NCBI GenBank assembly: GCA_018241125.1
Contig: JAFEEL010000013.1
Coordinates: 62,001 to 126,000 of the forward strand
From: Pseudomonadota bacterium
Lineage (GTDB): Bacteria > Pseudomonadota > Gammaproteobacteria > Xanthomonadales > Xanthomonadaceae
Direction: 5' to 3'
Length of the DNA stretch: 64,000 bases
A program made the position numbers and the translations under genes. Shown here in pieces: positions 1,898 to 55,518 of the stretch; the first letter of the stretch is position 1; the number at the start of each line of letters is the position of its first letter. The notes under the pieces were generated by a model. That model ran no database searches. It saw only the letters and a list, made by a program, of their open reading frames with translations, and was not told the origin of the DNA.

Positions 1898-1946
1898 GGG
1901 ACTCGGGACTCGGGATTCGGGATTCGGGATTCGGGATTCGGGATTC
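1898..1946. repeat. heptamer tandem array A (GGGACTC/GGGATTC, 7 units)
   Basis: Seven uninterrupted 7-base units, two GGGACTC followed by five GGGATTC, begin 13 bases after the stop codon of the glycine-zipper gene. The register is perfect. Confidence 0.95.
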
Positions 1947-1965
1947 GGCGCCGAGGGAGTGCAAG

Positions 1966-2000
1966 CCGTTCGTGGTGAGCCGGCCCGTGTCGAACCACGG
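1966..2000. repeat. REP-like inverted repeat
   Basis: A short hairpin-forming element. The arms CGTGGT (1971-1976) and ACCACG (1994-1999) enclose GAGCCGGCCCGTGTCGA. Intergenic inverted repeats of the GTGGTGAGCC...TCGAACCAC type are widespread in proteobacterial chromosomes. It is not part of any gene. Confidence 0.6.
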
Positions 2001-2072
2001 CACGCGGGTGGCCAACGCTCGCGCTCGCTTTGCTTGTTGCATTGCAGCGAAAGATCGTGCAACACTCCGCCC

Positions 2073-2180
2073 ATGCGCAGCCTGTATTCCGATGCCATCG
2101 TCCTCACCACCGCCCACATGGCGGCGGGGATGACCTCGCGCGCGCGCCGACCGCTGACCAGCCATTGCGAGGTCGGGTAG
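2073..2180 (+). CDS. possible leader peptide upstream of the arginine cluster
   Basis: A 35-codon ORF (MRSLYSDAIVLTTAHMAAGM, then an Arg-rich TSRARRPL segment and a short tail) ends 28 bases before the terminator stem that precedes argF'. It has four arginine codons, three of them clustered at codons 23, 25 and 26, and its stop lies inside a sequence able to pair with the 5' half of the terminator. That arrangement resembles a ribosome-stalling leader. Against it, there is no good Shine-Dalgarno sequence and the arginine cluster is modest for so GC-rich a genome. It may be non-coding. Confidence 0.25.
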   Translation: MRSLYSDAIVLTTAHMAAGMTSRARRPLTSHCEVG

Positions 2181-2238
2181 CGGCGCAACGTCATCCATCG
2201 TTGCCACGAAAAAACCCGGCCTGCGCGCCGGGTTTTTT
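2170..2238 (+). promoter_or_regulatory. candidate attenuator with mutually exclusive hairpins
   Basis: Three structures can be drawn. The terminator is at 2209-2238. A 6-bp hairpin GCAACG/CGTTGC sits at 2185-2190 and 2199-2204. A competing pairing joins 2170-2178 (AGGTCGGGT) with 2214-2222 (ACCCGGCCT), nine pairs including one G-U, and would disrupt the terminator while enclosing the small hairpin. The competing strand overlaps the stop of the possible leader ORF. The layout is what transcription attenuation would need ahead of argF'. Regulation by arginine is inferred, not shown. Confidence 0.35.
2209..2238 (+). terminator. strong rho-independent terminator before argF'
   Basis: A perfect 12-bp stem AAAAAACCCGGC / GCCGGGTTTTTT with a six-base loop, ending in six T residues. 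It lies 42 bases before the argF' ATG. It could end transcription from the glycine-zipper gene about 320 bases upstream, act in both directions because of the A-run, or be the terminator arm of an attenuator. Confidence 0.85.
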
Positions 2239-2280
2239 GTTGCCCGGCGCTTTCCTTCATTCCCGCTGCGAGCCCGCGCC

Positions 2281-3351
2281 ATGCAATCCGGATTTCCAGA
2301 ACATCCCCGCGACTTTCTCGACACCCAGCACTGGAGCCGCCCGGCGCTGGATGCGCTGCTGGCGTGTGCGGCCGCGTTCAAACGCGAGCGCTTTGGCGAT
2401 GACCTGCGCGGCAAGACCATCGCGCTGGTGTTCTTCAATCCCTCGTTGCGCACACGCAGCAGCTTCGAGATCGGCGCCTTCCAGCTCGGCGGGCACGCGG
2501 TGGTGCTGGCGCCGGGCAAGGATGCGTGGCCGATCGCGTTCGATCCGGGTGCGGTGATGGACGGCGATGCCGAGGAGCACATCGCCGAGGTGGCGCGCGT
2601 GCTGTCGCGCTACGTCGATCTGATCGGCGTGCGCGCGTTCCCGAAGTTTCTGGACTGGGCACAGGATCGCAAGGATGCGGTGCTGCGTGGTTTCGCGAAG
2701 TACGCCACGGTGCCGGTGATCAACCTGGAAACCATCGTGCATCCGTGTCAGGAACTGGCGCACATCCTCGCCTTGCGCGAGCGCTTGGGCACTGACGATT
2801 TGCGCGGGAAAAAATACCTGCTGACCTGGACGTATCACCCCAAGCCGTTGAACACCGCGGTCGCCAACTCGGCGCTGAGCATCGCCACGCGCTACGGGAT
2901 GGATGTCACCTTGCTGTGCCCGACGCCCGAGTACGTGCCCGATGCGCGCTACATGCAGCGTGCCGCCGACAACGTGGCTATGCACGGCGGCAGCTTGACC
3001 GTCAGCCACGAGCCGCACGAGGCCTATCGCGACGCCGACGTGGTGTACGCCAAGAGCTGGGGCGCGCTGCCGTATTTCGGGCGCTGGGAACAGGAGAGGC
3101 CCATCCGCGATGCACACCGCCACTTCATCGTGGATGAAGCCAAGATGGCACTCACCAACCGTGCCGCGTTCAGCCACTGCCTGCCGTTGCGCCGCAACGT
3201 CAAGGCCACCGACGGCGTGATGGATTCACCCGACTGCATCGCCATCGAAGAGGCCGAGAATCGCCTGCACGTGCAGAAGGCGGTGATGGCGGAACTGGCA
3301 CGGGACTCGGGACTCGGGGCTAGGGACTCGGGACACGGGGCTAGGGGCTAG
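2281..3351 (+). CDS. argF': N-acetylornithine carbamoyltransferase
   Basis: Transfers the carbamoyl group of carbamoyl phosphate to N-acetylornithine to give N-acetylcitrulline, the distinctive step of the acetylated arginine pathway of Xanthomonas relatives. The 356-residue protein has the carbamoyl-phosphate site FFNPSLRTRSSFE (about residues 50-62), HPCQ starting at residue 154 and HCLPLRR starting at residue 299. The segment GKDAWPIAF, with its tryptophan and proline, and the NLETIVHPCQ context match acetylornithine rather than ornithine carbamoyltransferases. The last 16 or so residues (ARDSGLGARDSGHGARG) are encoded by heptamer array B, and the stop codon itself is a TAG inside the array, so the native C-terminus has been replaced or extended. 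First gene of the arginine cluster. Confidence 0.95.
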   Translation: MQSGFPEHPRDFLDTQHWSRPALDALLACAAAFKRERFGDDLRGKTIALVFFNPSLRTRSSFEIGAFQLGGHAVVLAPGKDAWPIAFDPGAVMDGDAEEHIAEVARVLSRYVDLIGVRAFPKFLDWAQDRKDAVLRGFAKYATVPVINLETIVHPCQELAHILALRERLGTDDLRGKKYLLTWTYHPKPLNTAVANSALSIATRYGMDVTLLCPTPEYVPDARYMQRAADNVAMHGGSLTVSHEPHEAYRDADVVYAKSWGALPYFGRWEQERPIRDAHRHFIVDEAKMALTNRAAFSHCLPLRRNVKATDGVMDSPDCIAIEEAENRLHVQKAVMAELARDSGLGARDSGHGARG

Positions 3352-3378
3352 GGACTAGAGGCTCGGGGCTAGGGGCTC
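3302..3378. repeat. heptamer tandem array B (GGGACTC/GGGGCTA type, 11 units)
   Basis: Eleven consecutive 7-base units without a break in register, with variants GGGACTC, GGGGCTA, GGGACAC, GGGACTA, GAGGCTC and GGGGCTC. It overlaps the last 50 bases of argF' and supplies its stop codon. Confidence 0.93.
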
Positions 3379-3387
3379 AGTTGTTCT

Positions 3388-3426
3388 CCTTCCCCCGCTT
3401 GCGGGGGAAGGTCGGGATGGGGGCAC
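3388..3426. repeat. REP-like palindrome
   Basis: The perfect 11-bp inverted repeat CCTTCCCCCGC/GCGGGGGAAGG (3388-3411, two-base centre) is followed by TCGGGATGGGGG. A diverged copy with the same right flank is at 16607-16640, so this is a dispersed intergenic element. It lies in the gap between argF' and argG. Confidence 0.75.
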
Positions 3427-3549
3427 TTTTGCGCGCACCACACCCCATCTTCCCCGCAAGCACAGCAGGGAGCCGCTTGACCAACCCGATCTATGTGCAA
3501 ACACAACGCTGACCACAATTCTTGTCCGACCTGAGCACTGATACACGCC

Positions 3550-5010
3550 ATGATCTCCGCTTCCGCGATTTCCGATTCCCGAGTCCCGAGTCCGGGATCC
3601 TCCGACATCGTCCTGGCCTTCTCCGGCGGCCTGGACACCAGTTTTTGCGTGCCCTGGCTGATCGAACGCGGCTGGGCCGTGCACACCGTGTTCGCCGATA
3701 CCGGCGGTGTGGATGCGGGCGAGCGGGCGCGCATCGCGGCGCGGGCACACGAGCTGGGCGCGGCCTCGCACGTCACCGTCGACGGCGGGCCGGCGTTGTG
3801 GCGCGATTTCGTGGTGCCCTTCGTGATGGCCGGGGAAGGCTATCAGGGCCAGTATCCGTTGCTGGTGTCCGACCGTTATCTGATCGTCGCCGCCGCGCTC
3901 AAGCGCTGCGACGAACTGGGCACGCGCCACATCGCGCACGGCTGCACCGGCATGGGCAACGATCAGGTGCGCTTCGACCTGACGGTGAAGGCGTCGGGCG
4001 ATTATTCGATCATTGCGCCGATCCGCGAAATCCAGAAAGAGCACACCCACACCCGCGCCTACGAGCAGGCCTATCTGGCGCAGCGCGGGTTTTCCGTGCC
4101 GGCCAAGCAGCAGGCTTACACCATCAACGAAAACCTGCTGGGCGTGACGATGTCCGGTGGCGAGATCGACCGCTGGCAGGCACCGGACGCGGGCGCACGC
4201 GGCTGGTGCGCGCCGCGCGAGCAATGGCCATCCGAACCTCTGCACGTGCGCATCGGTTTCGAGTGCGGGCAGGCGGCGTCACTGGATGGACAGCGCATCG
4301 ATGGGCACGAGTTGCTGGGCAAACTCAACGGGCTGTTCGCGCGCTACGGCGTGGGTCGCGGCATCTACACCGGCGACACCACCATCGGCTTGAAGGGCCG
4401 CATCGTCTACGAAGCACCGGGTCTGATCGCCCTGCTCGCTGCGCATCGCGCGCTGGAAGACGCCGTGCTCGGCAAGGCGCAGAACCGCTTCAAGCCGAGC
4501 GTTGCGAAGCAATGGGTGGAACTGGTCTACGAAGGTTTTTTCCACGACCCGCTCAAGGCCGATCTGGAAGCCTTCCTGCGCTCCAGCCAGCGCTGCGTGA
4601 GCGGCGAGGTGACGCTGGAAACCTACGGCGGCAGCGTGCAGGCGGTGGCCATCGAATCGCCGCACACCCTGCACGCCAAGGGCGCGACCTATGCGCAATC
4701 GGCGGACTGGGGCGTGGCCGAAGCCGAAGGCTTCATCCGCCTGTACGGGATGAGCAGCACGCTGTGGGCGGAGGTGAATGGAGCGGGGAGCAGGGAGCGG
4801 GGAGCAGGGAGCGGGGAGCAGGGAGCGGGGAGCAGGGAGCGGGGAGCAGGGAGCAGGGAGCGGGGAGCAGGGAGCGGGGAGCAGGGGGGGGCAGGGGGAG
4901 CAGGGAGTGGGGAGCGGGGAGCAGGGAGCGGGGAGCAGGGAGCGGGGAGCAGGGGGGGGGCAGGGGGAGCAGTAAATTCTGCGTCTGATCGACCTTCCAA
5001 CCGACGTTGA
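3550..5010 (+). CDS. argG: argininosuccinate synthase with repeat-encoded tails at both ends
   Basis: Joins citrulline and aspartate using ATP to give argininosuccinate. The core has the N-type ATP pyrophosphatase loop [12 protein letters not shown] near residue 21, FADTGGVD, the substrate segment [14 protein letters not shown] and [11 protein letters not shown]. It ends at [10 protein letters not shown] (residue 410), where relatives such as the Xanthomonas enzyme end as I recall them. Residues 411-486 are a low-complexity tail ([14 protein letters not shown] repeats) encoded by heptamer array D, and the stop lies beyond the array. The N-terminal 18 residues before SSDIVLAF are largely encoded by the short reversed array C; no start codon lies between 3550 and the core. 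A 7-base unit read in triplets gives a seven-residue repeat, so neither array breaks the frame. The tails probably do not contribute to catalysis. Confidence 0.93.
3566..3593. repeat. heptamer tandem array C (CGATTCC/CGAGTCC, 4 units, reverse orientation)
   Basis: Four 7-base units, reading GGACTCG/GGAATCG/GAAATCG on the minus strand, lie inside the first codons of argG and encode most of its extra N-terminal residues. The array is the reverse-complement counterpart of arrays A and B. Confidence 0.8.
4781..4972. repeat. heptamer tandem array D (GAGCGGG/GAGCAGG, about 24 units)
   Basis: The longest array in the window. Alternating GAGCGGG and GAGCAGG units run from one base after the last conserved codon of argG to just before the TAA at 4973 (out of frame). 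Two copies of a 13-base G-rich interruption (GGGGGGCAGGGGG) suggest block duplication of part of the array. The array is translated as the ArgG C-terminal tail. Confidence 0.95.
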
Positions 5011-5090
5011 ATAGTGTCGGCCGCGCGACTGCCTTTCGGCTCACCGCTCACCGCTACCGGCTCACGCATTCAAACCATCATTCCCACCCC

Positions 5091-6179
5091 ATGCTCCCCT
5101 CCATCCTCACCCACCTCCAACGCCTCGTCGCCTTTGACACGCGCAATCCGCCGCGTGCGATTGGCACCGACGGCATCTTTGACTACTTGCGCGCGCAGTT
5201 GCCGGGCTTCGCGTTCGACCTGCGCGATCACGGTGCCGGCGCGGTGTCGCTGCTGGCGGTGCGCGGATCGCCCTCGCGGGTGTTCAACGTGCACATCGAT
5301 ACCGTGCCGGATGCGCCGGGCTGGAGTGCCGATCCGTTCGCGCTGGGCGTGGATGACCAACGAGCGACCGGCCTTGGCGCCTGCGACATCAAGGGCGCGG
5401 CGGCTTGCCTGCTGGCAGCCGCGCAGGCGTCCACCGGCGCTGCCGCGCTATTGTTCAGCAGCGACGAGGAAGCCAACGATCCGCGATGCATCCGCGCCTT
5501 TCTCGGTTCGGATCATGGCTTCGCGCAAGCCATCGTCGCCGAACCGACCGGCTGCAAGGTGGTGCTCGCCCATCGCGGCATCGCCTCGGTGCAGATGCGT
5601 TTTGTCGGCAACGCCGGGCACGCATCAGGCGTGAACGCGCTGGCCGACAACGCCCTGCATCAGGCGGTGCGCTGGGGCGCGCGGGCGCTGGACTGCGTGG
5701 CGAACGAGGCGCACCGCGAGTTCGACGGGCTCAGCGGCCTGCGCTTCAACATCGGCCGCATCGAGGGCGGCATCAAGGCCAACGTGATCGCGCCATCAGC
5801 CGACGTGCGCTTCGGCTTCCGACCGTTGCCATCGCACGACGTGGATGAGTTGCACGCGCGCTTTCACGATTGTGCCCACGCGCCGCCGGCGAGCTATACG
5901 GAAGTGTTTCGCGGCCCGGCGTTGCCCGCCGGCACGCCAGCACAAGCCAGCGCGCGCCACGGTCAAGCACGAGCGCTCGCGGACGACTTGGGTTTGCCGA
6001 TCGGCGCGGCGGTGGACTTCTGGACGGAAGCCGCGCTGTTCTCCGCCGCCGGCCTGACTACGCTGGTGTATGGGTCGGGCGATATCGCGCAGGCGCACGC
6101 GGCCGACGAATGGGTCGCGCTGGAGCAACTGCGCGCCGCCGCCACCACCTACCGACGCCTGCTGGAGATCGAGCAATGA
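5091..6179 (+). CDS. argE: M20-family deacetylase, N-acetylcitrulline/N-acetylornithine type
   Basis: Removes the acetyl group from N-acetylcitrulline, inferred from the acetylornithine carbamoyltransferase in the same cluster, or from N-acetylornithine. The 362-residue protein has the M20 di-zinc landmarks: NVHIDTVP (metal His and Asp, about residue 65), GLGACDIKGA (bridging Asp), SSDEEAND (catalytic and metal Glu), VAEPTGCK, and a C-terminal FWTEAALFS region. The dimerisation domain begins around AHRGIASVQMRF. The ATG at 5091 is preferred because it directly precedes the conserved LPSILTHLQRLVAFDTRNPP segment; the open frame continues upstream to 5007 without conserved sequence. It lies 80 bases after argG. 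Substrate preference cannot be read from the sequence. Confidence 0.9.
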   Translation: MLPSILTHLQRLVAFDTRNPPRAIGTDGIFDYLRAQLPGFAFDLRDHGAGAVSLLAVRGSPSRVFNVHIDTVPDAPGWSADPFALGVDDQRATGLGACDIKGAAACLLAAAQASTGAAALLFSSDEEANDPRCIRAFLGSDHGFAQAIVAEPTGCKVVLAHRGIASVQMRFVGNAGHASGVNALADNALHQAVRWGARALDCVANEAHREFDGLSGLRFNIGRIEGGIKANVIAPSADVRFGFRPLPSHDVDELHARFHDCAHAPPASYTEVFRGPALPAGTPAQASARHGQARALADDLGLPIGAAVDFWTEAALFSAAGLTTLVYGSGDIAQAHAADEWVALEQLRAAATTYRRLLEIEQ

Positions 6180-6260
6180 ACCCCGCGCGTATGGCAACGA
6201 CACCGACCACCGAGTTGCGGAGCTCGCTTCCGCAACCCCTCCACTGAGCCGTACCTGAGC

Positions 6261-7595
6261 ATGAGCCAGATGCGCACCACCATCGTCCGCTTGCTGTCCA
6301 ACATGGCCAGCGCCAAGGAAATCAGCCTGTACCTGAAGCGTTTCGCGCGCATGGACGCGGCGCGCTTCGCGGTGGTCAAGGTCGGCGGCGCGGTGCTGCG
6401 CGACGATCTGGACGCGCTGGTGTCCTCGCTGGCTTTCCTGCAACAGGTCGGGCTGACGCCGATCGTGCTGCACGGTGCCGGTCCGCAACTGGACGAACAC
6501 TGTGCCGCCGCCGGCATCGCGAAACGCGCGCTCGATGGCTTGCGCGTGACCCCGCCGGAGACGCTGGCGGTCGTGCGCCGCGTGTTGCTGTCCGAAAACC
6601 TGCGGCTGGTCGAAGCCTTGCAAGCGGCCGGTGTGCGTGCCACGTCGATCCAGTCCGGCGTGTTCGAGGTGGAAGTGCTGGATCCTGATCGCTACGGCCT
6701 TGTCGGCAAGGTGATCGCGGTGCACACGCCGGGCATCCGCGCCGCCATCGGCGTGGGCTCGATCCCGGTGATCGCCTCGCTGGGCGAAACCGGTGGCGGG
6801 CAAATCCTCAACATCAATGCCGACTGGGCGGCCAGCGAGTTGGTGAAGGAACTGCAACCGTACAAGATCGTTTTTCTCACCGGTACCGGCGGCCTGCTCG
6901 ACGGCGATGGCCGCTTGATCGACTCGATCAATCTGGGCAGTCAATACGAAGCGCTGATGGGCGCGGCGTGGTTGCACTCGGGCATGCGCGTGAAGATCGA
7001 GCAGATCCACGATCTGCTGATGCAGTTGCCGCCGTCCTCGTCGGTGTCGATCACGCGCCCGGACGAACTGGCCAAGGAACTGTTCACCCATCGCGGCTCC
7101 GGCACGCTGGTACGGCGTGGCGAACGCATCGAACAACACACCGGATGGAATGCGCTGGATCGGACGCGGATCGCCGCGTTGATCGAATCGGGCTTTGGCC
7201 GCAGGCTGGCAGCGGATTATTTCGAGGCCACGCAACCCTGGCGGGTGTTCGTCAGCGAGCACTACCGCGCGGCGCTGCTGCTCACGCGCGAAGTGTTTGC
7301 CGGCGGCGAACTCGTGCCGCATCTGGACAAGTTCGCTGTCGCCCACGATGCGCAGGGCGAAGGCCTGGGGCGCGCCGCGTGGCAGGCGATGCGTGCGTCC
7401 GTGCCCAGGCTGTTCTGGCGCTCGCGCCCAGACAATCCGGTCAACGAGTTTTACCTCGAACAGGCCGATGGCTGCATCAAGTCCGAGCGTTGGAACGTGT
7501 ACTGGTACGGGCTGGAATCACTGGCCGCGATCGGGCAAGCGGTGGATCATTGCCGGGCGCGACCGGCGAGCTTGAAGGAGCATTGCCATGCATGA
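6261..7595 (+). CDS. argB: bifunctional N-acetylglutamate synthase/kinase
   Basis: Makes N-acetylglutamate and phosphorylates it, the first two steps of arginine synthesis. Residues about 30-280 form the amino-acid-kinase domain ([56 protein letters not shown]). Residues about 290-440 form the vertebrate-like NAT/GNAT domain ([59 protein letters not shown]). This fused architecture is characterised in Xanthomonas and Xylella and explains the absence of separate argA and argB here. At 444 residues it is full length for the fusion. The stop overlaps the GNAT gene by eight bases, pointing to translational coupling. The usual gene name is argB (or argAB). Confidence 0.95.
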
Positions 7596-8199
7596 GTCGG
7601 CCACGGCGTGGCTCGATCCGGTGACGTTGGCAAGCGATCAGGTGCGCCTGGAGCCGCTGGCGCCCGCGCACTCGCCGGCGCTATGCGAGGCCACACGGGA
7701 TGGCCAATTGTGGAATCTCTGGTACACCTCGGTTCCAGCGCCCGAACGCATGGATGCGTGGATCGCTTCGGCACTCGCCGATCGTGCTGCCGGCACCGCA
7801 TTGCCTTTCGTGGTGCGCGATGGGAACGGTGTCGTCGTCGGCAGCACGCGCTACTGCAACGCCGACGCAGGCAATCGCCGGCTGGAGATCGGCCATACGT
7901 GGTACGCGGAGCGCGTTCAGCGCAGCGGCGTGAACACGCAAGCCAAGTGGCTGCTGTTGCGACACGCATTTGAAACGCTGGGCTGCATCGCGGTGGAATT
8001 CCGCACGCATTGGTGCAACCTGCGCTCGCGCGCAGCGATCGCACGACTGGGCGCGAAGCAGGACGGCGTGCTGCGCAACCATCGGATCATGCCCGATGGC
8101 AGTTTTCGCGACACCGTGGTGTTTTCGATCGTCGCCAGCGAGTGGCCGGCGGCGCGCGCGCACTTGCAGTTCCTTGTCGAAAGCGGAGGGCAGCGGTGA
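7588..8199 (+). CDS. RimJ/RimL-type GNAT acetyltransferase within the arginine cluster
   Basis: A 203-residue acetyl-CoA-dependent N-acetyltransferase. Typical RimJ/L features are [18 protein letters not shown] at the N-terminus, [18 protein letters not shown] (strands 2-4), LEIGHTWY, a CoA-loop region [18 protein letters not shown] around residues 110-128, and [20 protein letters not shown], the hallmark helix of this subfamily. The Shine-Dalgarno AAGGAG sits 7 bases before the ATG. The ORF overlaps argB by 8 bases and argC by 4, so it is translated with the arginine enzymes. Its substrate is unknown. A comparable gene sits between argB and argC in Xanthomonas relatives to my knowledge, which suggests a link to arginine metabolism, but this is inference. 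Confidence 0.85.
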
Positions 8200-9173: not shown

Positions 9174-9260
9174 GTGGTAGCCGCACATCGCTCCGCAGCG
9201 GCGGTGTGGTCAGGCAAGGCGACACCCAATTCGTATCCTGCTTCGCTCTTCGCTTCTCTC

Positions 9261-9302
9261 TGCTCCCCGCTCCCCGCTCCCATCTCCCCGCTCCCTGCAC
9301 CC
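9261..9302. repeat. heptamer tandem array E (CGCTCCC type, 6 units), flush with the argH start
   Basis: Six 7-base units (TGCTCCC, CGCTCCC twice, ATCTCCC, CGCTCCC, TGCACCC) end exactly at the base before the argH ATG. On the minus strand it reads GGGAGCG/GGGAGCA, the same sequence family as array D. It fills the position where a ribosome binding site should be with pyrimidines. Confidence 0.93.
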
Positions 9303-10607
9303 ATGACCGACTACCTCTGGCAAAAGCCCGGCACCTGCGTCGATGCGCGGATCATGAAATTTCTCGCCGGCGACGACGTACTGCTCGATGCCGCATTCTT
9401 CGTCTGCGACATCCGCGCCAGCATCGCCCACGTCGAATCCTTGCAACGCATCGGAATGCTCACGGTGGAGGAGGCCGAATCGCTGGTGCGCGAGTTGCGT
9501 GCGTTGGCGGATGATTTTTCCAGCGGGACGTTCGTGCTCGACGCCCGCTACGAAGACGGCCATTCGGCCATCGAAGCGCGCTTGGGCGAGCGGCTGGGCG
9601 AAGTCGGCCGCAAGGTACACGCCGGACGCAGCCGCAACGATCAGGTCCTCGTCGCCACGCGCTTGTGGCTGAAGGAGCGCCTCGACGAACTGGAGTCGCT
9701 GTGCGCGCAGGCCGCGGTGGTGTGCCTGGATCGGGCCGCGCACGAAGCGCTGCCGCTGCCCGGCTACACCCATTTGCAGCGCGCGGTAGTGTCGTCCACG
9801 GCGATGTGGTTCGCCGGTTTCGCCGAAGCGTTCATCGACGACGCACTGCGCGCACGCCAGGCGCGCGACTGGATCGACGCCAACCCGCTGGGTACCGCTG
9901 CCGGCTACGGCGTCAACCTGCCGCTGGATCGGGACTACACGACGCAGACGCTGGGATTCGCGCGCATGCAGGTGTCGCCGGTGTATGCGCAGCTATCGCG
10001 CGGCAAGTTCGAGATCGCCGCGCTCGACGCGTTGGGCGCGGTGCTGCTCGATGCGCGCCGGTTGGCGTGGGACCTGTCGCTGTTCACCACCGCCGAATTC
10101 GATTTCGTCGATCTGCCGGATGAATACACCACCGGCAGTTCGATCATGCCCAACAAGCGCAACCCCGATGTGATCGAGTTGCTGCGCGCCAGTTACGCCA
10201 CCGTCGCCGCGGCGCGGGTGGAGATCGAATCGCTGCTGTCGCTGCCGTCCGGCTACCAGCGCGATTTGCAGTATTCCAAAGGCGGCCTGTGGCATGGGTT
10301 CACACACGGTCTGGCGGCGCTGCACCTGTTGCCAGACCTGCTGGCGCGCATGCAATGGAATGCAGCGCCGATGCATGCGGCGATCGATCCGGCGATGTAT
10401 GCCACCGACCGCGCGATCGAACTGGCGCGCGCCGGCACGCCGTTTCGCGATGCCTATCGGCGGGCTGCGGTCGATCCGTTGCCGGCTGCCGGCGCCGATC
10501 CGCAAGCAAGCCTGTCGGCGCGGGTGTCGCCGGGCGGCGCGGCCGATCTGCGGCTGGACGTGTTGCGTGCACGTCTGGCTGCCCTGCGACCGCCGCAGTT
10601 GGGTTGA
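9303..10607 (+). CDS. argH: argininosuccinate lyase
   Basis: Splits argininosuccinate into arginine and fumarate, the last step of the pathway. The 434-residue protein shows fumarase/aspartase superfamily features: [11 protein letters not shown] near residue 105, [14 protein letters not shown], and the signature [12 protein letters not shown] around residue 280, which holds the catalytic serine loop. The ATG at 9303 begins the conserved TDYLWQKPG segment. Upstream in-frame codons encode only array E and unconserved sequence. No Shine-Dalgarno sequence is possible in the 42 bases before the start because they are a pyrimidine-rich repeat, so translation may depend on coupling or a start lacking a canonical site. 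It ends the arginine cluster; no proB or proA follows. Confidence 0.95.
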
Positions 10608-10653
10608 GCGAAGCAAAGGGCGAGGGGCGCCCCGGCAAGGCCGCGGTCGCGGG

Positions 10654-10684: not shown

Positions 10685-10726
10685 GCGCGCCGTTCCGGCA
10701 ATCGCCGGGGCTACCCCGGAGCGAGC

Positions 10727-23225: not shown

Positions 23226-23413
23226 GGAATTCTCCTGACGTGAAGTAGGTGCGCGGGGGCGGTGCCGATGGGCAAGGCATTGCGCGCGCGTGATTGCGGA
23301 TTTTACCGGCCCACACCGACGCGCCGACCGTGTCGAAGGTCATGTTCGGCTGCCAGCAAGCCACGCCACGGACTCGCGTGCTACCGTCGGGCTTTCATCG
23401 ACGGAGCAATGTC

Positions 23414-24781
23414 ATGCGCATCACCTTCATCGGCGCCGCCGGCGGCGTGGTCACCGGCTCGTGTCACCTGCTCGAAGCGGCCGGCAAGCGCATCCTGCTG
23501 GATTGCGGCATGGTGCAGGGCGGCAAGGACTCCGACGAAATCAACGCCAAGCCGTTTGCCTTCGACGTGGCCAGCATCGACGCGCTGGTGCTCAGCCACG
23601 CCCACATCGACCACATCGGTCGCGTGCCGCTGTTGGTCAAACGCGGCTACAAAGGCCCGATCTTCGCGCAGGCGGCGACCTGTGACCTGTTGCCGATCAT
23701 GTTGATCGACTCGGCGCGCCTGGCCGAGTTCAGCGCCCAGCGCGCGCAGCGCGACGGCGACGAGGATGCGCAGGCGTTGTACGACGAGGCCGATGTCGGC
23801 GCGGTGCAGAAGCTGCTGCATCCGCTGCGCTATGAAGCCGCGACCGAAATCCTGCCCGGCGTGACCGTCACCTTGCACGAGGCCGGGCACATCCTGGGCT
23901 CGTCTATGATCGAGCTGCGTGCCGACGGCAAGACCCTGCTGTTCACCGGCGACGTGGGCATGAAGAACACGCCGATCCTGCGCGACCCCGCCGATCCGCC
24001 GCGCGCCGACTTGATCCTGATGGAATCCACCTACGGCGATCGCAACCACAAGGATCGCGCCGCGACCGTGGCCGAACTGGGCGAGATTTTCGCCCTGGCC
24101 GCCAAGGATGGCGGCAACGTCGTCATCCCGGCATTCGCGGTAGGCCGCAGCCAGGAGCTGCTGTACTGGTTTGCCCAGCACTACGACGATTGGAGCCTGT
24201 CGCGCTGGAAGATCTTCCTCGACAGCCCGATGGCGGCCAAGGTGATGGCGGTGTACGACCGCCACGAGGAGCTGTTCGACGCCGACGCGGCCAAGGTCTG
24301 GGCGGGGCGCATCAAGCCGTTCCAGCTGCCGAACCTGAGCGTGACCGCCGACGCCAACGACAGCAAGGCGATCAACAAGCTGCGTGGCGGCGCGATCATC
24401 ATCGCCGGCTCTGGCATGGCCAATGGCGGGCGTGTGCGCCATCACCTGTCCTACAACCTCGGCAACCCCAAGGCACACGTGATCTTCGTCGGCTACCAGG
24501 CCGATGGCACCCTGGGCCGGCTATTGGTGAACGGCCTCAAGCGCGTGCGCATGTTCGGCGAGGAAATCGCGGTGAAGGCCCAGATCCACACGGTCGGCGG
24601 CCTGTCCGCGCACGCCGACCAGCAAGCCCTGCTCGACTGGTACGCCGCCAGCCCCAACCACCCCCCGGTGGCGCTGGTGCACGGCGAGAACCCGGCACGG
24701 GAAACACTCGACGGCAAGCTCGAAAAGCAATTCGGAATCCAGGTCACGCTGTCGCAGCCGGGCCTGACGCTGGATGTCTGA
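23414..24781 (+). CDS. metallo-beta-lactamase/beta-CASP RNase-like protein
   Basis: A 455-residue cytoplasmic protein of the CPSF73/Ysh1-like group. The metallo-beta-lactamase zinc motif is LVLSHAHIDHIGRVP, with further ligands in HEAGHILGSS and LLFTGDVG. The beta-CASP insert (about residues 210-370) includes LMESTYGDR and FAVGRSQELLYW. The C-terminal part has AGSGMANGGRVRHHL and the RNA-specificity region HTVGGLSAHADQQALLDWY, with VALVHGE near the end. This organisation fits an endo- or exoribonuclease. GGAG lies eight bases before the ATG. The stop codon TGA shares its last base with heptamer array F. Confidence 0.92.
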   Translation: MRITFIGAAGGVVTGSCHLLEAAGKRILLDCGMVQGGKDSDEINAKPFAFDVASIDALVLSHAHIDHIGRVPLLVKRGYKGPIFAQAATCDLLPIMLIDSARLAEFSAQRAQRDGDEDAQALYDEADVGAVQKLLHPLRYEAATEILPGVTVTLHEAGHILGSSMIELRADGKTLLFTGDVGMKNTPILRDPADPPRADLILMESTYGDRNHKDRAATVAELGEIFALAAKDGGNVVIPAFAVGRSQELLYWFAQHYDDWSLSRWKIFLDSPMAAKVMAVYDRHEELFDADAAKVWAGRIKPFQLPNLSVTADANDSKAINKLRGGAIIIAGSGMANGGRVRHHLSYNLGNPKAHVIFVGYQADGTLGRLLVNGLKRVRMFGEEIAVKAQIHTVGGLSAHADQQALLDWYAASPNHPPVALVHGENPARETLDGKLEKQFGIQVTLSQPGLTLDV

Positions 24782-24850
24782 GGACAGAGGACAGAGGACA
24801 GAGGACAGAGGACAGAGGACAGAGGACAGAGGACAGAGGACAGAGGACAG
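24781..24850. repeat. heptamer tandem array F (AGGACAG, 10 perfect units)
   Basis: Ten identical AGGACAG units with no variation start on the last base of the preceding stop codon. The perfect homogeneity suggests a recent expansion and likely length differences between strains. A reverse-complement cousin is array K at 46101. Confidence 0.97.
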
Positions 24851-24881
24851 AAAACAGCCGCCGCCGTCCGCGGTTTGCATT

Positions 24882-28575: not shown

Positions 28576-28652
28576 GGGCAGGCTTCCTGACATGGATGGG
28601 CGTGCGTGCATGGTGACGGGTCGGCGACGCCCGCGCACCGGCCGAAGGTCAC

Positions 28653-28701
28653 GGGAAGCAGGGAGCGGAGAGCAGGGAGCGGGGAGCGGAGGCAGGGGAC
28701 A
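28653..28701. repeat. heptamer tandem array G (AGGGAGC/GGGGAGC type, 7 units)
   Basis: Seven 7-base units (GGGAAGC, AGGGAGC, GGAGAGC, AGGGAGC, GGGGAGC, GGAGGCA, GGGGACA), a mixed relative of array D, lie in the gap upstream of the DUF885 gene. Confidence 0.85.
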
Positions 28702-28779
28702 AGGGGTTCTGCTGCTTTCAGCCCGCCGGTGCGGGGGATGGATCCGCGTGACTGGCCGAGCGCGACGCATCGTTCGCTT

Positions 28780-45274: not shown

Positions 45275-45423
45275 ACTGGGAGCCGGGAGCCGGGAGCCGG
45301 AGCAGGGAGCCGGAGCAGGGAGCAGGGAGCCGGAGCAGGGAACCGGGAGCCGGAGCAGGGAGCCGGAGCAGGGAGCCGGGAGCCGGAAGCAGGGAGCCGG
45401 AGCAGGGAGCCGGAACAGGGAGC
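45275..45423. repeat. tandem array H (GGGAGCC/GGGAGCA heptamers mixed with GGAGCA hexamers)
   Basis: About 22 units: heptamers GGGAGCC, GGGAGCA, GGGAACC and GGAAGCA alternate with 6-base GGAGCA and GGAACA. It is the only GGGAGC-type array with regular 6/7 mixing. It starts nine bases after rsfS and lies in a 374-base gap with no gene. Confidence 0.9.
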
Positions 45424-45870: not shown

Positions 45871-45912
45871 CGGAGGACGGAAGACAGAGGACGGAGGACG
45901 GAAGACAGAGGG
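45871..45912. repeat. heptamer tandem array I (CGGAGGA/CGGAAGA/CAGAGGA, 6 units)
   Basis: Six 7-base units made of a three-unit block (CGGAGGA, CGGAAGA, CAGAGGA) repeated twice, so there is a 21-base higher-order repeat. It begins two bases after tRNA-Arg. Confidence 0.88.
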
Positions 45913-45981
45913 TGATCAGTAGTCGGTAACCAGTACCAGCCAGCGATCGCTGGACTCATGGAAGTACAAGAACGGGAGCAC

Positions 45982-46061
45982 AAAAACGCGGAAGCACAAA
46001 AGCGCGGAGGCACAAAAGCGCGGAAGCACAAAAGCGCGGAAGCACAAAAGCGCGGAAGCAC
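45982..46061. repeat. 16-base tandem repeat (AAAAGCGCGGAAGCAC, 5 units)
   Basis: Five direct units of 16 bases with two single-base variants. This differs from the heptamer arrays in length and is A-rich. It lies between tRNA-Arg and tRNA-His; no gene is evident in the 267-base gap. Confidence 0.93.
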
Positions 46062-46100
46062 AGACGCCAGCGGACAGATGACTGTGGACAGACTACCTTT

Positions 46101-46135
46101 CTGTCCTCTGTCTTCTGTCCTCTGTCCTCTGAACG
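46101..46135. repeat. heptamer tandem array K (CTGTCCT type, 5 units), flush with tRNA-His
   Basis: CTGTCCT, CTGTCTT, CTGTCCT, CTGTCCT and a diverged CTGAACG end exactly at the base before tRNA-His. CTGTCCT is the reverse complement of AGGACAG in array F. Confidence 0.9.
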
Positions 46136-46343: not shown

Positions 46344-46379
46344 ACTCTTCCTCGCTCGTGGCAGCCACCCGCGGCAATC

Positions 46380-46464: not shown

Positions 46465-46536
46465 GCGCGGTCGCCGGCGTGATTTCCTGCCACGAACCCC
46501 GTGCGCGCCGCTTGGTACGCACCCACTGGAGTGAAC

Positions 46537-47838: not shown

Positions 47839-47914
47839 TTTGCGGCACTTGCACCCCATTTGGGCGTGATGCAACGCAAGTCGCGTCGCAGGGATGCCAA
47901 TATTGCGGAACGTC

Positions 47915-47953
47915 GCCCCTCACCCCAACCCCTATCCCGGGGGGGAGAGGGGC
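47915..47953. repeat. REP-like hairpin upstream of clpP
   Basis: GCCCCTC (47915-47921) pairs with GAGGGGC (47947-47953) around ACCCCAACCCCTATCCCGGGGGG, which itself can form inner pairs. It ends 25 bases before the clpP start and lies between tig and clpP, so it may affect read-through or the stability of the clpP message. Confidence 0.75.
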
Positions 47954-47978
47954 TTGTAGTTTCCTGTTCCAGCCGGAG

Positions 47979-48608: not shown

Positions 48609-48712
48609 TCGCGCCGGCCCAGGCCCGCGCCCGGCATCACGTTTCCCGCGCGCAAGCCTGCGTGCGGGCTGTGTTATTCTGAAAGGGCATTTCCGCCCGG
48701 AGCCCGAGATTC

Positions 48713-49999
48713 ATGAGCGACGACCGCAGCGGCCGATCCAGCGACGGCGGCAAGATCCTTTACTGCTCGTTCTGCGGCAAGAGCCAGCACGAAGTCCGCA
48801 AGTTGATCGCCGGCCCGTCGGTATTCATCTGCGACGAATGTGTCGAGCTGTGCAACGACATCATCCGCGAGGAACTCGAGGAAAAGGCGCAGGCCGCCGG
48901 CAGCCACCTGCCCAAGCCGCGTGAGATCCTCGACGTGCTCGATCAGTACGTGATCGGCCAGCAACGCGCCAAGAAGACGCTCTCGGTGGCGGTGTACAAC
49001 CACTACAAGCGCATCGAGAGCCGCGGCAAGGGCGACGACGTCGAGCTGAGCAAGTCCAACATCCTGCTGGTCGGCCCGACCGGTTCGGGCAAGACGCTGC
49101 TGGCCGAGACGCTGGCGCGCCTGCTCAACGTGCCCTTCACGATCGCCGATGCCACCACCCTCACCGAAGCCGGTTACGTCGGCGAGGACGTGGAAAACAT
49201 CATCCAGAAGCTGCTGCAAAAGTGCGAGTACGACGTCGAGAAGGCGCAGACCGGCATCGTCTACATCGACGAGATCGACAAAATTTCGCGCAAGTCCGAA
49301 AACCCGTCCATCACCCGTGATGTGTCCGGCGAGGGCGTGCAGCAGGCGCTGCTCAAGCTGATCGAGGGCACCATCGCCTCGGTACCGCCGCAGGGCGGGC
49401 GCAAGCATCCGCAGCAGGAGTTCCTGCAGGTCGATACGAAGAATATCCTTTTCATCTGCGGCGGCGCGTTCGCCGGGCTGGAGAAGATCGTCCAGCAACG
49501 CAGCACCGATGCCGGCGGGATCGGTTTCGGCGCCAAGGTGAAGAGCAAGTCCCGCAAGGCCGAAGTCGGTCGCCTGCTCGCCGACGTGGAACCTGAAGAC
49601 CTGATCAAGTTCGGCCTGATCCCCGAGTTCGTCGGCCGCCTGCCGGTGGTGGCTACGCTGGAAGAACTCGACGAAGCCGCGCTGGTGAAGATTCTCACCC
49701 AGCCCAGGAACGCGCTGTCCAAGCAGTTCCGCAAGCTGTTTGACATGGAAGGCGTGGAACTCGAGCTGCGCCCGGAAGCGTTGGCGGCGGTGGCGCGCAA
49801 GGCGCTCAAGCGCAAGACCGGCGCGCGCGGCCTGCGCACCATCCTGGAGTCGGTGCTGCTCGACACCATGTTCGACCTGCCGTCGTTGCAGAACGTGAGC
49901 AAGGTGGTGGTCGACGAATCGGTGATCGAGAACCAGACCGAGCCGTTCCTGATCTACTCCAACACCGCCGAACCCAAGCGCGCCGCTTCCTCGGAGTGA
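48713..49999 (+). CDS. clpX: ATP-dependent unfoldase ClpX
   Basis: Unfolds tagged or native substrates and feeds them to ClpP. The 428-residue protein has the N-terminal zinc-binding domain with Cys18, Cys21, Cys40 and Cys43, the Walker A GPTGSGKT (about residue 123), the Walker [11 protein letters not shown], the IGF loop that docks on ClpP ([12 protein letters not shown]), sensor 1 in [13 protein letters not shown], and sensor 2 in [17 protein letters not shown] box at 48675 in a TGTGT context is a possible extra promoter before it. Downstream is lon. Confidence 0.97.
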
Positions 50000-50060
50000 G
50001 CCCGGCGGCCGTTGGTGGCCGTCGCGGCAATGCGCAAGTCGTTGATTCTTCGTTCGGTCG

Positions 50061-50091
50061 GCGCTTGCGCGCCGGTCAGGCTTGCAAGCGC
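50061..50091 (+). promoter_or_regulatory. hairpin in the clpX-lon gap
   Basis: GCGCTTGC (50061-50068) pairs with GCAAGCGC (50084-50091) around a 15-base loop. No T-run follows, so it is not a typical terminator. It could act in RNA stability or as a DNA site in the 146-base gap before lon. Confidence 0.4.
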
Positions 50092-50145
50092 GCCCGGCAA
50101 GCCCCATAACCGCTTCCGTCAGCCCTCGCGCAACCGGAGTCCGCG

Positions 50146-52584
<2,439 letters not shown>

Positions 52585-52662
52585 ACTCCGCGCGCGCCCA
52601 CCCAAACCGTGCCGGGAGTTTCGAAATCCGCTGAAAACCGCGTCGTTGCTGGATTTTCCGTG

Positions 52663-52691
52663 TTGCGCGGCATCGGTTGCGCTGGTATAAA
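52663..52691 (+). promoter_or_regulatory. hupB promoter
   Basis: TTGCGC (52663-52668) and TATAAA (52686-52691) are separated by 17 bases, with a TGG just before the -10 box (extended -10). It is among the best sigma-70 matches in the window, 127 bases before the hupB ATG, giving a long untranslated leader. Confidence 0.65.
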
Positions 52692-52817
52692 TCGCTACGA
52701 CCTCGCCGCCCGCCGATTCGGCCCGCGGTGGGGCCCAGGTCGATCGGGCGTGCAGGGGATCATGGCGCGCCCGGATTGAAGCCAATTGCAGGTCCCATTT
52801 GCCCCCAGGAGCATTCA

Positions 52818-53090
52818 ATGAACAAGGCTGATTTCATCGCGTCGGTTGCCGATATCGCGGAGCTGTCCAAGGCCGACGCTGGTCGCGCCGTCGACGCGAT
52901 GGTGGAGACCATCACCAAGTCCCTGAAGAAGGGCACGAGCGTGACGCTCGTGGGTTTCGGCACGTTCTCGATCCGCAAGCGCGCCGCGCGCACCGGGCGC
53001 AATCCGCGCACCGGCGCCACGATCAAGATCAAGGCTTCGAAGAACCCCGCGTTCAAGGCTGGCAAGGCTCTGAAGGATGCCGTAAACTAA
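52818..53090 (+). CDS. hupB: DNA-binding protein HU
   Basis: A small histone-like dimer that bends and compacts DNA. The 90-residue protein reads [33 protein letters not shown], then the beta-arm with [25 protein letters not shown] and the DNA-intercalating proline region, and ends [16 protein letters not shown]. Shine-Dalgarno CAGGAG lies before the ATG. The lon-hupB-ppiD order is conserved in proteobacteria, with two tRNAs inserted here. Confidence 0.97.
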
Positions 53091-53100
53091 GCGGCTCGGT

Positions 53101-53129
53101 GGGAAGCTAGGCCGTTCGCCCGGCTTCCC
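53101..53129 (+). terminator. hairpin after hupB, possible terminator or RNA processing site
   Basis: GGGAAGC (53101-53107) pairs with GCTTCCC (53123-53129). It lies 10 bases after the hupB stop and 13 before tRNA-Val. There is no T-run, so it may end hupB weakly or mark processing of a joint hupB-tRNA transcript. Confidence 0.4.
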
Positions 53130-53142
53130 GCGGTCGCCTTGC

Positions 53143-53217
53143 GGGTGCTTAGCTCAGCGGTAGAGCGTCGCCCTTACAAGGCGAGGGTCGGGGGTTCGAA
53201 ACCCTCAGCACCCACCA
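53143..53217 (+). tRNA. tRNA-Val (TAC)
   Basis: Acceptor stem GGGTGCT/AGCACCC, D arm AGCTCAGCGGTAGAGC, anticodon stem TCGCC/GGCGA with loop CTTACAA and anticodon TAC, T arm GGGGG-TTCGAAA-CCCTC, encoded CCA. Confidence 0.96.
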
Positions 53218-53321
53218 GTGTCGGTCGGACGCGGTTTCGTCAACGCCGCCTGTCTGGACGCCCGGAAGAGTAGTGCGGGCCATCCGGCGACGGGTGGTTG
53301 CCGCAAGGAGAGTTTCAGCGC

Positions 53322-53398
53322 GGAGTGGTAGTTCAGTCGGTTAGAATGCTGGCCTGTCACGCCGGAGGTCGCGGGTTCGAGTCCCGTCCACTCCGCCA
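53322..53398 (+). tRNA. tRNA-Asp (GTC)
   Basis: Acceptor stem GGAGTGG/CCACTCC, D arm AGTTCAGTCGGTTAGAAT, anticodon stem CTGGC/GCCGG with loop CTGTCAC and anticodon GTC, T arm GCGGG-TTCGAGT-CCCGT, encoded CCA. A terminator-like hairpin follows 10 bases later. Confidence 0.96.
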
Positions 53399-53407
53399 TT
53401 TTTCGCC

Positions 53408-53433
53408 AGGGCGCCGCAAGGCGCCCTTGTCTT
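53408..53433 (+). terminator. terminator after the tRNA-Val/tRNA-Asp pair
   Basis: An eight-bp GC-rich stem AGGGCGCC/GGCGCCCT closed by a GCAA tetraloop, followed by the T-rich TGTCTTGTC. A good candidate for ending the tRNA transcript before ppiD. Confidence 0.65.
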
Positions 53434-53496
53434 GTCGGGGGTCGCCTTGACGATCGGGCACCCGCGGCGGGCGCATTCGTCGAGAGCCCTCACAGC

Positions 53497-55467
53497 ATGC
53501 TGCAAAAAATCCGCAACGCGAGCACCGGCTGGGTTGCCGGCATCATCATGGGCCCGCTGATCCTGTTCTTCGGCCTGTGGGGTATCGACGGGTATTTCCA
53601 GGGGCGCATCGAGACCTACGCGGCGCGCATCACCCTCCAGCGCGGCTGGTTCGGCACCGACTTCGGCGCCAAGTTCAAGGACATCTCCGTAGACGACTTC
53701 CGGCGCCGCCTCGAAAGCGAGCGCGAAGCGCAGCGGCAACAGTTGGGCGATGCCTTCGATCAAGCCACGTTCGACACGCCCGCCACCAAGCGCAAGGTGA
53801 TCGATCGCATGGTGATGCGGGAACTGCTGTTGGCCGCCGCCGGGCGTGATGGACTGGCGGTGTCCGGGCAGCAACTGTTCGACGCCATTGCCAGCGACCC
53901 GATGTTCCAGTCGGCCGGCAAGTTCGATCCGCTGCGCTACAAGATGGCGCTGCAAAGCGTGAATCCACCGATGTCGCCCGAACAATACGAGGCGACCAAG
54001 CGCGACGATCTGCTGATCCAGTCGCTTGCGCAGGAAATCAGTTTCTCGGGCATCGCCTCGGACAAGGAGGTGGACGAAGCGATTCGACTGGGTGGGCAAA
54101 AGCGCGACATGCGCATCCTGACGCTGCCGGTGCCCGCCGATGGCCCGGCGCCGAGCGATGCGCAAATCGCCGCGTGGTACAAGGCGCACCCGAAGTCGTA
54201 TCAAACCGAAGAACAGGTCGCGTTGGAATATCTGGAACTGGACGCGGCAACGATGCCGCCGCCGGCGCCGATCGACGAGGCGACCTTGCGCCAGCGCTAC
54301 GACGACCAGAAAGATCGCTACGTCGAACCCGAGCAGCGCGAAGCCTCGCACATCCTGCTCAACGTGCCGGCCAATGCCACCCCGGCGCAAGAGAAAGCGG
54401 TGCAGGCCAAAGCGGCGGCGCTGGTCGCAAAAGCACGTGCGCCCGGCGCAGATTTCGCAGCGCTGGCCAAGGCGCAGTCCGACGACATCGGTTCGAAGAA
54501 CCAGGGTGGCGATCTGGGCTGGCTGACCGAAAAGGCCGTCAGCCAGAAGGCGTTCGCCACCGCGCTGTTCGCCCTGCAAAAAGGGCAGGTGTCCGATCCG
54601 GTGCGTACCGACGAGGGCTGGCACGTGATCTTGCTGCGCGACATCAAGCCCGGTGAGCGCATTCCGTTCGCGCAGGTGCGCGACCAGATTTCTGCCGATG
54701 CGTTGAAGGAAGAACGCGAGAAGGATTTCTCCGACCAGTCCGGCAAGCTCGTCGACCTGACCCTCAAGGACCCGACCACCCTGGCCAGTGCTGCCAAGCA
54801 GATGGGCCTGACGGTGCAAAAGACACCGCTGTTCACGCGCACCACGGCAACCGGTATCGCCGCCAACCCGGCGGTGCTCAAGGCGGCGTTCTCCAGTTCG
54901 TTGATCGACAGCGGCCAGAACAGCGACGAGATCGATCTGGACAAGAAAAACCACGAGCACATGGTGGTCATTCGCGTCGCCGAGCATCACCCGGTCAAGG
55001 TGATGCCGCTGGCGCAAGTGCACGACCGCGTGGTTGCCGACATCCAGGCCGATGCGCGCGCCAAGGCCGCCAAGGCCGCCGCTGATGCGATGCTCACGCG
55101 TGCGCAAAAAGGCGAGACGCTCGAAGCCCTCGCCACCTCGATCGGTACCGGCGTGCAGACGCTGACGCAGGTCGGTCGCGGGCAAACCACCCCTTCGGCG
55201 GACATCGTCGATGCCGCGTTCCGCATGCCGCACCCGGTGCAGGGCAAGCCCGATCCGTTGGCGATCGCCGATTTGACGCCCGATCACTACGTGCTGATCG
55301 AGTTGACCCGGGTCGTCGATGGGGACCTGTCGGCAGTGGATGCGGCGACCCGCGCCAGCTACCGCAAGCAGTTCGCGCGCGATGCCCGCGGCGGGCTGGA
55401 AGTGCGCAACTACATCGACGCCCTGCGCAAGCAGTTCCCGGTCAAAATCGCCGAGGATCGCTTGTAA
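53497..55467 (+). CDS. ppiD: periplasmic chaperone/prolyl isomerase PpiD (SurA_N plus rotamase)
   Basis: A 656-residue inner-membrane-anchored periplasmic folding factor that assists proteins leaving the Sec translocon. A single N-terminal membrane segment ([23 protein letters not shown]) is followed by the SurA_N-like region, a parvulin domain (about residues 275-380, [68 protein letters not shown]), and a long C-terminal SurA-like part. Location after hupB is the classical position for ppiD. Confidence 0.94.
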
Positions 55468-55483
55468 GCCGCGACGCCGCGTC

Positions 55484-55518
55484 CGTCGCCCGTCTCCCGT
55501 CTCCCGTTTCTCGTCTCC
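55484..55518. repeat. heptamer tandem array L (CGTCTCC type, 5 units)
   Basis: CGTCGCC, CGTCTCC twice, CGTTTCT and CGTCTCC fill most of the 64-base gap between ppiD and mdh. The minus-strand unit reads GGAGACG. The array ends next to the GGAG that serves mdh. Confidence 0.85.

Follow-up and report, generated by a model that had tools for sequence, protein, structure and literature searches.

The 64,000-nucleotide window analysed here (positions 62,001 to 126,000 of contig JAFEEL010000013.1, assembly GCA_018241125.1), which stems from a Pseudomonadota bacterium of the Xanthomonadaceae related to Lysobacter and Xanthomonas, contains a series of tandem arrays built from seven-base units. These arrays stand at the edge of functional sequence, their G-rich strand mostly leads outward from that edge, and their units belong to a limited set of recurrent families. 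At the gene edges examined, both the presence of an array and its unit often vary from one species to another. We propose, with a probability of roughly 0.45, that the arrays are dispersed repeats which are expanded by slippage and copied between gene edges with fixed polarity, their seven-base register being inherited.

Period and orientation of the arrays

Tandem Repeats Finder (TRF) was run on the window, rows of period 7 and its multiples being merged. It returns a tandem array at each of the 11 sites listed by the first-pass annotation of this DNA and a twelfth at 5039-5065. A lag-match scan of the window yields 13 segments of period 7 (632 nt) besides the multiples 14, 21 and 28. Periods 2-5, 8, 10 and 11 are not represented, and no remaining period has more than four segments. 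A sample of 773,647 nt from the window's genome, a draft of 3,073,646 bases in 67 contigs, contains 124 arrays. Period 7 accounts for 66 of them, and of these 66, 51 lie between genes; the first-order Markov control derived from this sample produced a single array, of period 2. As the sampled stretches were partly picked from contigs already known to hold repeats, the array density in this genome is biased upward. In nine genomes of the family (2,214,590 nt) period 7 accounts for 117 of 235 arrays and is followed by periods 15 (19 arrays), 6 (18) and 14 (15). Hence, the proposal that period 7 exceeds other periods holds in both samples. Within a comparison set of 56 loci mostly from other phyla (933,746 nt) there are four arrays each at periods 7, 14 and 21, and among 14 loci from Lysobacterales and similar records (284,331 nt) period 7 is found in four of 15 arrays. 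Two further claims of the first-pass annotation need correction. The exact seven-base register applies to most arrays of the window but not to 45278-45423, which mixes 7- and 6-nt units, nor to 4780-4970, which is largely a 14-mer, nor to the degenerate 28652-28699. The shared pattern GGRNNNN is too narrow, as arrays of the GTGAATC type are also present in the genome.

The scan of the nine genomes comprises 135 arrays of period 7, 14 or 21, of which 120 have called neighbours on both sides. One strand is G-rich in 114 of these 120, and 95 of the 114 skewed arrays are intergenic. The polarity set consists of these 95, six arrays without skew and 19 lying mostly inside called genes (among them 3301, 3566, 4780 and 4895 of the window) being left out. 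With genes from a retrained caller and tRNAs from ARAGORN, the 5' end of the G-rich strand faces the nearer gene or tRNA in 86 of the 95 cases, the median distance being 11 nt on the 5' side of this strand versus 164 nt on its 3' side. The ratio is 15:1 in convergent and 10:1 in divergent gaps; in tandem gaps it amounts to 29:1 where the G-rich strand is the coding strand and to 32:6 where it is the template strand. Since the rule is independent of gene direction, we ascribe the polarity to the DNA gap and not to transcripts, and an RNA-level function as its general cause was rejected on the grounds that divergent and convergent gaps behave alike. Thinning to one array per kilobase, applied because neighbouring arrays are not independent, leaves 63-64 arrays with the polarity versus 8-9 against it. 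The long-contig genomes agree (G006 7:1, G058 2:0, G111 3:1, G022 12:0), as does a count in the window's own genome with the first gene caller, arrays overlapping genes included (59 of 67). Base composition at gene edges was likewise rejected as the cause: at array-free gap edges the outward G-skew is small, 0.011 after stops and 0.073 before starts, with a maximum of 0.16 in one 10-nt bin.

The two gene callers agree on 608 of 672 stops in the window's own genome; in the GC-rich genomes G006 and G111 the first caller is weak, providing 55 reciprocal best pairs where the retrained one provides 111. The own-genome period-7 and intergenic counts and the orientation counts of neighbouring pairs are based on the first caller; the nine-genome polarity, unit counts, G-skew, gap interiors, flank matches, phase, purity and thinning are based on the retrained one.

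In the window, plus-strand arrays lead away from the stops at 1885, 3351, 24781 and 45266 and from tRNA-Arg, and minus-strand arrays lead away from the front of the gene at 9303 and from that of tRNA-His. The array 55483-55514, separated from its neighbouring genes by 17 nt (5' side) and 15 nt (3' side), was scored as an exception, and 28652-28699, at a distance of about 77 nt from one neighbour and about 81 nt from the other, is without polarity and outside the counted set. The first-pass annotation had described the arrays as starting or stopping at gene or tRNA ends and had taken these positions to be non-random. The latter is borne out by the 86 of 95 arrays; of the former the placement at edges stands, although the underlying rule is really one of polarity, with the two exceptions just named. 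Sixty skewed arrays have a same-strand protein gene as their 5' neighbour; 13 of them span its stop codon, 25 begin 0-15 nt past it, 12 start at a greater distance and 10 are situated entirely within the gene. Start positions within the unit show some phase preference, with 10 of 14 GTGA-type arrays at one phase and 21 of 33 GGGA-type arrays outside the own genome; in the own genome the starts of GGGA arrays are not clearly phased (7 of 31). We take a fixed start phase as a hint only because the variable seventh base biases the start calls and because the 3' ends of GGGA arrays are likewise phased (p 0.005).

Arrays sharing a gap are arranged in a particular manner. Out of 30 neighbouring pairs, 21 are convergent, nine have the same orientation and none is divergent. 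Convergent partners have similar units, differing by 1.43 mismatches on average as against 2.09 for random arrays of the same genome (permutation p 0.002). A count of partner arms (29 of 65 versus 19 of 65 in a poor control) was not used.

Recurrent units and change at single gene edges

The 62 skewed arrays of the own-genome sample use 22 unit sequences, whereas random draws of the same base composition lead to an expectation of 56 and never fell below 48 in 500 draws. After thinning to one array per kilobase, 42 arrays remain with about 17 units (15-20), 39 being expected and 34 being the minimum of 500 draws. Even if GGGA is held fixed, the 31 GGGA-type arrays contain 10-11 units where 22 are expected (first percentile 17). 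With about 17 units in 42 separated arrays, the units are not independent inventions, and their recurrence suggests that existing arrays are copied, or that a generator prefers a small number of units. The commonest unit is GGGACTC (10 of 62), with GGGATTC in two and GGGAATC in one; most own-genome arrays thus do not fit the unit GGGAATC/GGGANTN known from Xanthomonas (see below). While 44 of the 62 units contain GGG, 18 do not, which led us to reject the G-quadruplex as the general cause. Copy numbers cluster near four, the detection threshold dropping shorter arrays. Higher-order periods of 14 and 28 nt and mixed 6/7-nt units are compatible with slippage. Of six units sampled from each of three congeners, five recur in the own sample in the case of G025 and five in the case of G068.

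Except for the DUF885 edge, the comparison of orthologous edges was performed on 30 loci each, which include four congeners, distant relatives and some paralogues. At the 3' edge of the argininosuccinate synthase gene, arrays were detected in four of the 30 loci, with four different units: GGGAGCA in the own genome, GGACAGA in G025, GGGACTC in G004 and GGGATTC in G001. In the gap before this gene, seven of 30 loci have an array no more than 160 nt away from the matched start. GTGAATC and GGGATTC are each found in two of them and GAGAATC and GGGAATC in one each, while the seventh array has minus polarity; the own GGGACTC-type array is more distant and does not belong to the seven. Upstream of the DUF885 gene, G025 harbours GGACAGA/AGACAGA and G068 harbours GGGAGCG/GGGAAGC, like the window, followed by GGGGTAC; an array was looked for at this edge in G119 and none was found. 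The array at the 3' edge of the beta-CASP gene occurs in the own genome only and is absent from the 29 other loci including the four congeners, and the array in the gap after a PpiD-like gene is likewise restricted to the own genome among 30 loci including the four congeners. Since unit families recur, the GGACAGA array at the beta-CASP stop appears to be new at this site but not as a sequence. Altogether, at three of the five own-genome edges compared, one or more congeners have arrays as well. In two of these three cases every congener unit differs, and at the third edge, that of DUF885, G025 differs while G068 differs in part. Accordingly, the arrays at an edge do not simply descend in place from a single repeat; recurrence of units together with turnover of sites indicates that families persist while sites change, i.e. 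dispersal.

These results modify the argument of the first-pass annotation, according to which a constant length with changing sequence points to a shared generating mechanism rather than to descent from one repeat. As stated, this contrast is not supported, as the recurrence of units exceeds what independent births would give. Simple descent in place does conflict with the different units at orthologous edges, yet copying plus slippage can hand down a constant register.

G006 and G111, which belong to another genus of the family, consist of one contig each and have about 87% identity in aligned parts, mostly align on the gene side up to the array; beyond it, in the cases shown, they align poorly as far as the next array or gene. 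At one orthologous site the copy number is four in G006 versus about 21 in G111. Among 57 gaps, the mean aligned fraction outside arrays is 0.28 in five array gaps versus 0.62 in the 52 others (p 0.027), a comparison which is suggestive only because array gaps are also longer. In the own genome, sequence matched elsewhere occurs in 19 of 39 array 3' flanks versus 52 of 229 array-free gaps (p 0.0014); these 39 were taken from 48 arrays, the rest having short or masked flanks. At least 10 of the 14 flanks shown contain palindromes resembling repetitive extragenic palindromic (REP) elements. In the G000 sample, such palindromes beside array 3' ends have the forms GCCCCTCTCCC-loop-GGGAGAGGGG and CTTCCCCCGC-GCGGGGGAAGG (e.g. 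L028 19294-19630).

Arrays of the window and published heptamer repeats

The arrays of the window are compiled in Table 1. Within 3250-3351, the TAG stop and the last residues of the carbamoyltransferase gene are encoded by the array itself, and a stop codon drawn from inside an array is apparently also present in one gene of G006/G111. Similarly, the reading frame of argininosuccinate synthase continues through its array to 5010 with a repetitive 76-residue tail; judged from the reading frame, 4780-5010 appears to be an array-coded tail of some 76 residues beyond the last conserved codon. TRF assigns periods of 13, 20 and 33 to 45278-45423. The motif preceding the array upstream of DUF885 is conserved in the congeners. 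A GAAGGTCAT-type motif is seen in the gaps 23226-23413 and 28576-28779, here and in congeners, and may be a promoter or a regulator site. The centre of the tRNA-Arg/tRNA-His gap (45973-46062) is occupied by 5.6 copies of a 16-nt tandem repeat, CGGAAGCACAAAAGCG, whose period is not a multiple of seven and which is flanked by the two converging heptamer arrays.

Table 1. Position, strand, unit and surroundings of the heptamer arrays in the window
Position	Strand	Copies and units	Surroundings
1897-1948	+	7.4 copies GGGATTC, gene-side GGGACTC	begins 11 nt past stop of Gly-zipper gene 1313-1885
3301-3377 (TRF 3297-3378)	+	11 copies GGGACTC/GGGGCTA	over stop of ornithine/aspartate carbamoyltransferase gene 2281-3351
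3557-3593	-	4-5 copies GGGAATC/GGGACTC	argininosuccinate synthase side; converging partner of 3301-3377
4780-4970	+	about 27 copies GGGAGCA/GGGAGCG	start is last conserved codon of argininosuccinate synthase
5039-5065	-	3.9 copies GGTGAGC	ahead of M20 peptidase gene 5091; read as partner converging on 4780-4970
9241-9302 (TRF 9262-9304)	-	8.9 copies GGGAGCA-type	ends at called start of lyase gene 9303
24780-24851	+	10.3 perfect copies GGACAGA	starts within TGA stop of beta-CASP hydrolase gene 23414-24781
28652-28699	+	degenerate GGGAGCG-type	upstream of DUF885 gene, after conserved GAAGGTCA-type motif
45278-45423	+	GGGAGCC/GGAGCA, 7- and 6-nt units mixed	11 nt past RsfS gene stop (45266)
45871-45911	+	5-6 copies GGAGGAC-type	2 nt past tRNA-Arg 3' end (45868)
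46100-46131	-	4.6 copies GGACAGA	4 nt ahead of tRNA-His (46136); converging partner of 45871-45911
55483-55520	-	4.6-5.4 copies GGGAGAC	most of short gap before malate/lactate dehydrogenase gene 55532

Heptamer repeats of cyanobacteria are known as short tandemly repeated repetitive sequences (STRR). Repeats of the present kind have been described in Xanthomonas by Rehm et al. (2015; PMC4692102), who, in the excerpts of that paper on which the following relies, report GGGAATC-type repeats, 186 in one genome and 183 in another, together with comparable repeats in Nostoc. They are intergenic, lie closest to the 5' neighbour regardless of its orientation and form 70 and 75 convergent pairs; their units fold into G-quadruplexes in vitro, and the two species have 83% of sites in common, with highly variable length and sequence (PMC4692102). 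These heptamers (GGGAATC, GGGGA(C/T)T) share with ours a G-rich seven-base unit, an intergenic position, the 5' side of the G-rich strand at the gene, convergent inverted pairs, overlap with stop codons, spread over the genome and variation of length and sequence at shared sites (PMC4692102). As far as those excerpts extend, the window's genome differs by its 22 unit families in the sample, 18 of 62 arrays without GGG and arrays at tRNA edges, and the present data differ by the change of unit family at one edge and by the more frequent dispersed repeats in the 3' flank. In the same excerpts, no function was found and the cause was not identified. The first-pass annotation was aware of no explanation; that paper gives no cause either, but the phenomenon had already been described there for Xanthomonas and Nostoc (PMC4692102).

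Several further systems are related. Among long simple-sequence repeats of 5-11 nt, heptamers dominate according to Mrazek and co-workers (2007, cited in PMC4692102 and PMC4679880), as they do here. These authors are quoted as proposing slippage and the polymerase contact length, and the heptamer length has been suggested to reflect the DNA segment at the polymerase active site (cited in PMC4692102); the proposal as cited does not include polarity or pairing, both of which are present here. Calothrix has three heptanucleotides (cited in PMC4692102) and resembles the window's genome in harbouring several in one genome, a likeness by description only. The TAACTGA heptamers of marine Beggiatoaceae also form intergenic arrays near gene edges but consist of a single unit of other composition and lie mainly upstream of starts (excerpts of PMC4679880). 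Variable number tandem repeat (VNTR) loci used for typing Xanthomonas have 7-nt units in 12 of 19 cases (PMC6459536), mixed 7-nt motifs per array and strain-variable copy numbers; unlike the present arrays they serve as typing markers (excerpts of PMC8002079 and PMC6459536). Within the open-licence literature we found no account of such arrays in Lysobacter relatives, of a change of unit family at one edge or of tRNA edges. Thus, the kind of array is known from Xanthomonas, and what is additional here are the many units, the arrays without GGG, the tRNA edges and the change of unit family.

Possible origin of the arrays and its implications

If existing arrays are dispersed by copying, a new array would be seeded when illegitimate recombination or template switching places a piece of an existing one into a gap, in many cases as a pair of inverted arrays which converge on a variable spacer, and this spacer may contain REP-like palindromes. 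Strand slippage would then lengthen or shorten the array unit by unit, and purifying selection would exclude it from genes, so that it directly adjoins the last codon, tRNA base or promoter motif that is needed. The number seven would mainly be handed down from array to array. As to the source of the polarity, one may guess that copying at DNA ends or hairpins favours one strand.

Several points weigh against this proposal. No copying event has been observed, dispersal being deduced from shared units, and a generator preferring certain sequences could also yield shared units. Copying and selection alone do not generate polarity. Near relatives are few, namely four congeners three of which are named as metagenome-assembled genomes, and one of them, G095, has only one of six sampled units in common with the own sample. 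Sites are not always short-lived: 83% are shared between two Xanthomonas species (excerpts of PMC4692102), and in two of the five array gaps of G006/G111 an array is detected in both genomes. The comparison of spacers is based on these five array gaps. The 19 of 39 flanks with matches elsewhere include neighbouring arrays of one gap, and three of the 19 have a single match. Finally, among 91 arrays the 5' half is less pure in 49 and the 3' half in 21, with 21 ties (p 0.001); as this difference is lost after trimming 7 nt per end (20 versus 14 with 14 ties, p 0.39), the degeneracy of the 5' end says little on the direction of growth.

Concerning the machinery, a Y1 transposase (PF01797) is encoded in 83 of 119 family genomes, with three matches in the window's genome. 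It is lacking in 10 of the 52 genomes with at least 10 matches to the array pattern, including the richest, G020, and the congener G095. A Y1/RAYT (REP-associated tyrosine) transposase was therefore rejected as a requirement; its association with the arrays is weak, with p 0.03 uncorrected at one threshold and 0.11 and 0.14 at others. Neither Ku (PF02735) nor a reverse transcriptase of the PF00078 type gave a match in the genus members G000, G025, G068 and G095, divergent reverse transcriptases outside the latter model being possible. Y1 transposase, Ku and the Pfam reverse transcriptase are not required for the arrays; other polymerases and nucleases were not searched.

Purely local slippage is a possible though doubtful alternative. 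Chance duplications of purine-rich heptamers would expand under weak selection, a length of seven suiting polymerase slippage. The scattered occurrence of such repeats outside the family is in line with this: in a sample of the class, at least one fourfold match to GGGANNN is found in 24 of 274 genomes, two of which belong to this family (the own genome and one other), the count within the family being 70 of 119. So are the higher-order periods and the difference of four versus about 21 units at the G006/G111 site. However, local slippage predicts neither shared units at unlinked loci nor shared units within convergent pairs, nor a polarity at gene edges which is independent of gene direction. 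In G289 and G399, both of one other family, a reversed control pattern gave 151/154 and 32/90 matches and the forward pattern none; their repeats are another heptamer type, of the order AGGGNNN.

It is unlikely that the arrays are selected as functional elements, G-rich sequences which, often as inverted pairs, would fold into hairpins or G-quadruplexes at the boundaries of transcripts or genes. Their position at edges would suit such a role, as would the mutual pairing of arrays in most of 16 intervals between convergent partners, folded without a shuffled control (L045 4810-4879 being weak), and, from the excerpts of PMC4692102, the in vitro folding of related units and the extent of site sharing in Xanthomonas. 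Against it stand the arrays without GGG, the equal polarity of divergent and convergent gaps, owing to which an RNA-level role is not general, and the fact that for two of the three genes compared the array is found in the own genome only (one of 30 loci each).

Distinctly unlikely in our view is that the arrays bound an intergenic cassette whose hypervariable interior, framed by converging arrays, is made or reset when breaks in the gap are repaired. The arrays might then be cap-like outgrowths of 3' ends or polar signals which halt a nuclease coming in from the break, and neither Ku nor a PF00078 reverse transcriptase would be needed. At still longer odds we place an outgrowth of break ends, in which each 3' end of a broken gap would be extended by self-templated synthesis of heptamers, similar to a telomere cap, and rejoined with filler. 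This would account in one step for pairs which only converge, for the same unit on both sides and for the direction-independent polarity, and the poorly aligning interior between conserved edges in G006 versus G111 is consistent with it. Yet four genus members lack Ku and PF00078 matches, other polymerases not having been searched, no significant gradient of purity within arrays is left after trimming, and the comparison of interiors involves five versus 52 gaps. An artefact of draft assembly is scarcely credible: three of the four congeners are named as metagenome-assembled genomes, in which arrays may be collapsed, but the same arrays are present in long contigs (one each in G006, G058 and G111, three in G022) and have been published for Xanthomonas genomes (excerpts of PMC4692102).

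In this lineage, period, polarity and pairing are maintained even where the unit family at a gene edge switches. Such switching separates models based on a single sequence, such as a G-quadruplex or one regulatory motif, from models in which DNA ends or gaps are copied. If the proposed dispersal is true, simple repeats can act as a spreading family of elements without a dedicated transposase. Arrays which reach coding ends supply C-termini and stop codons and are thus a possible source of variation at the ends of proteins.

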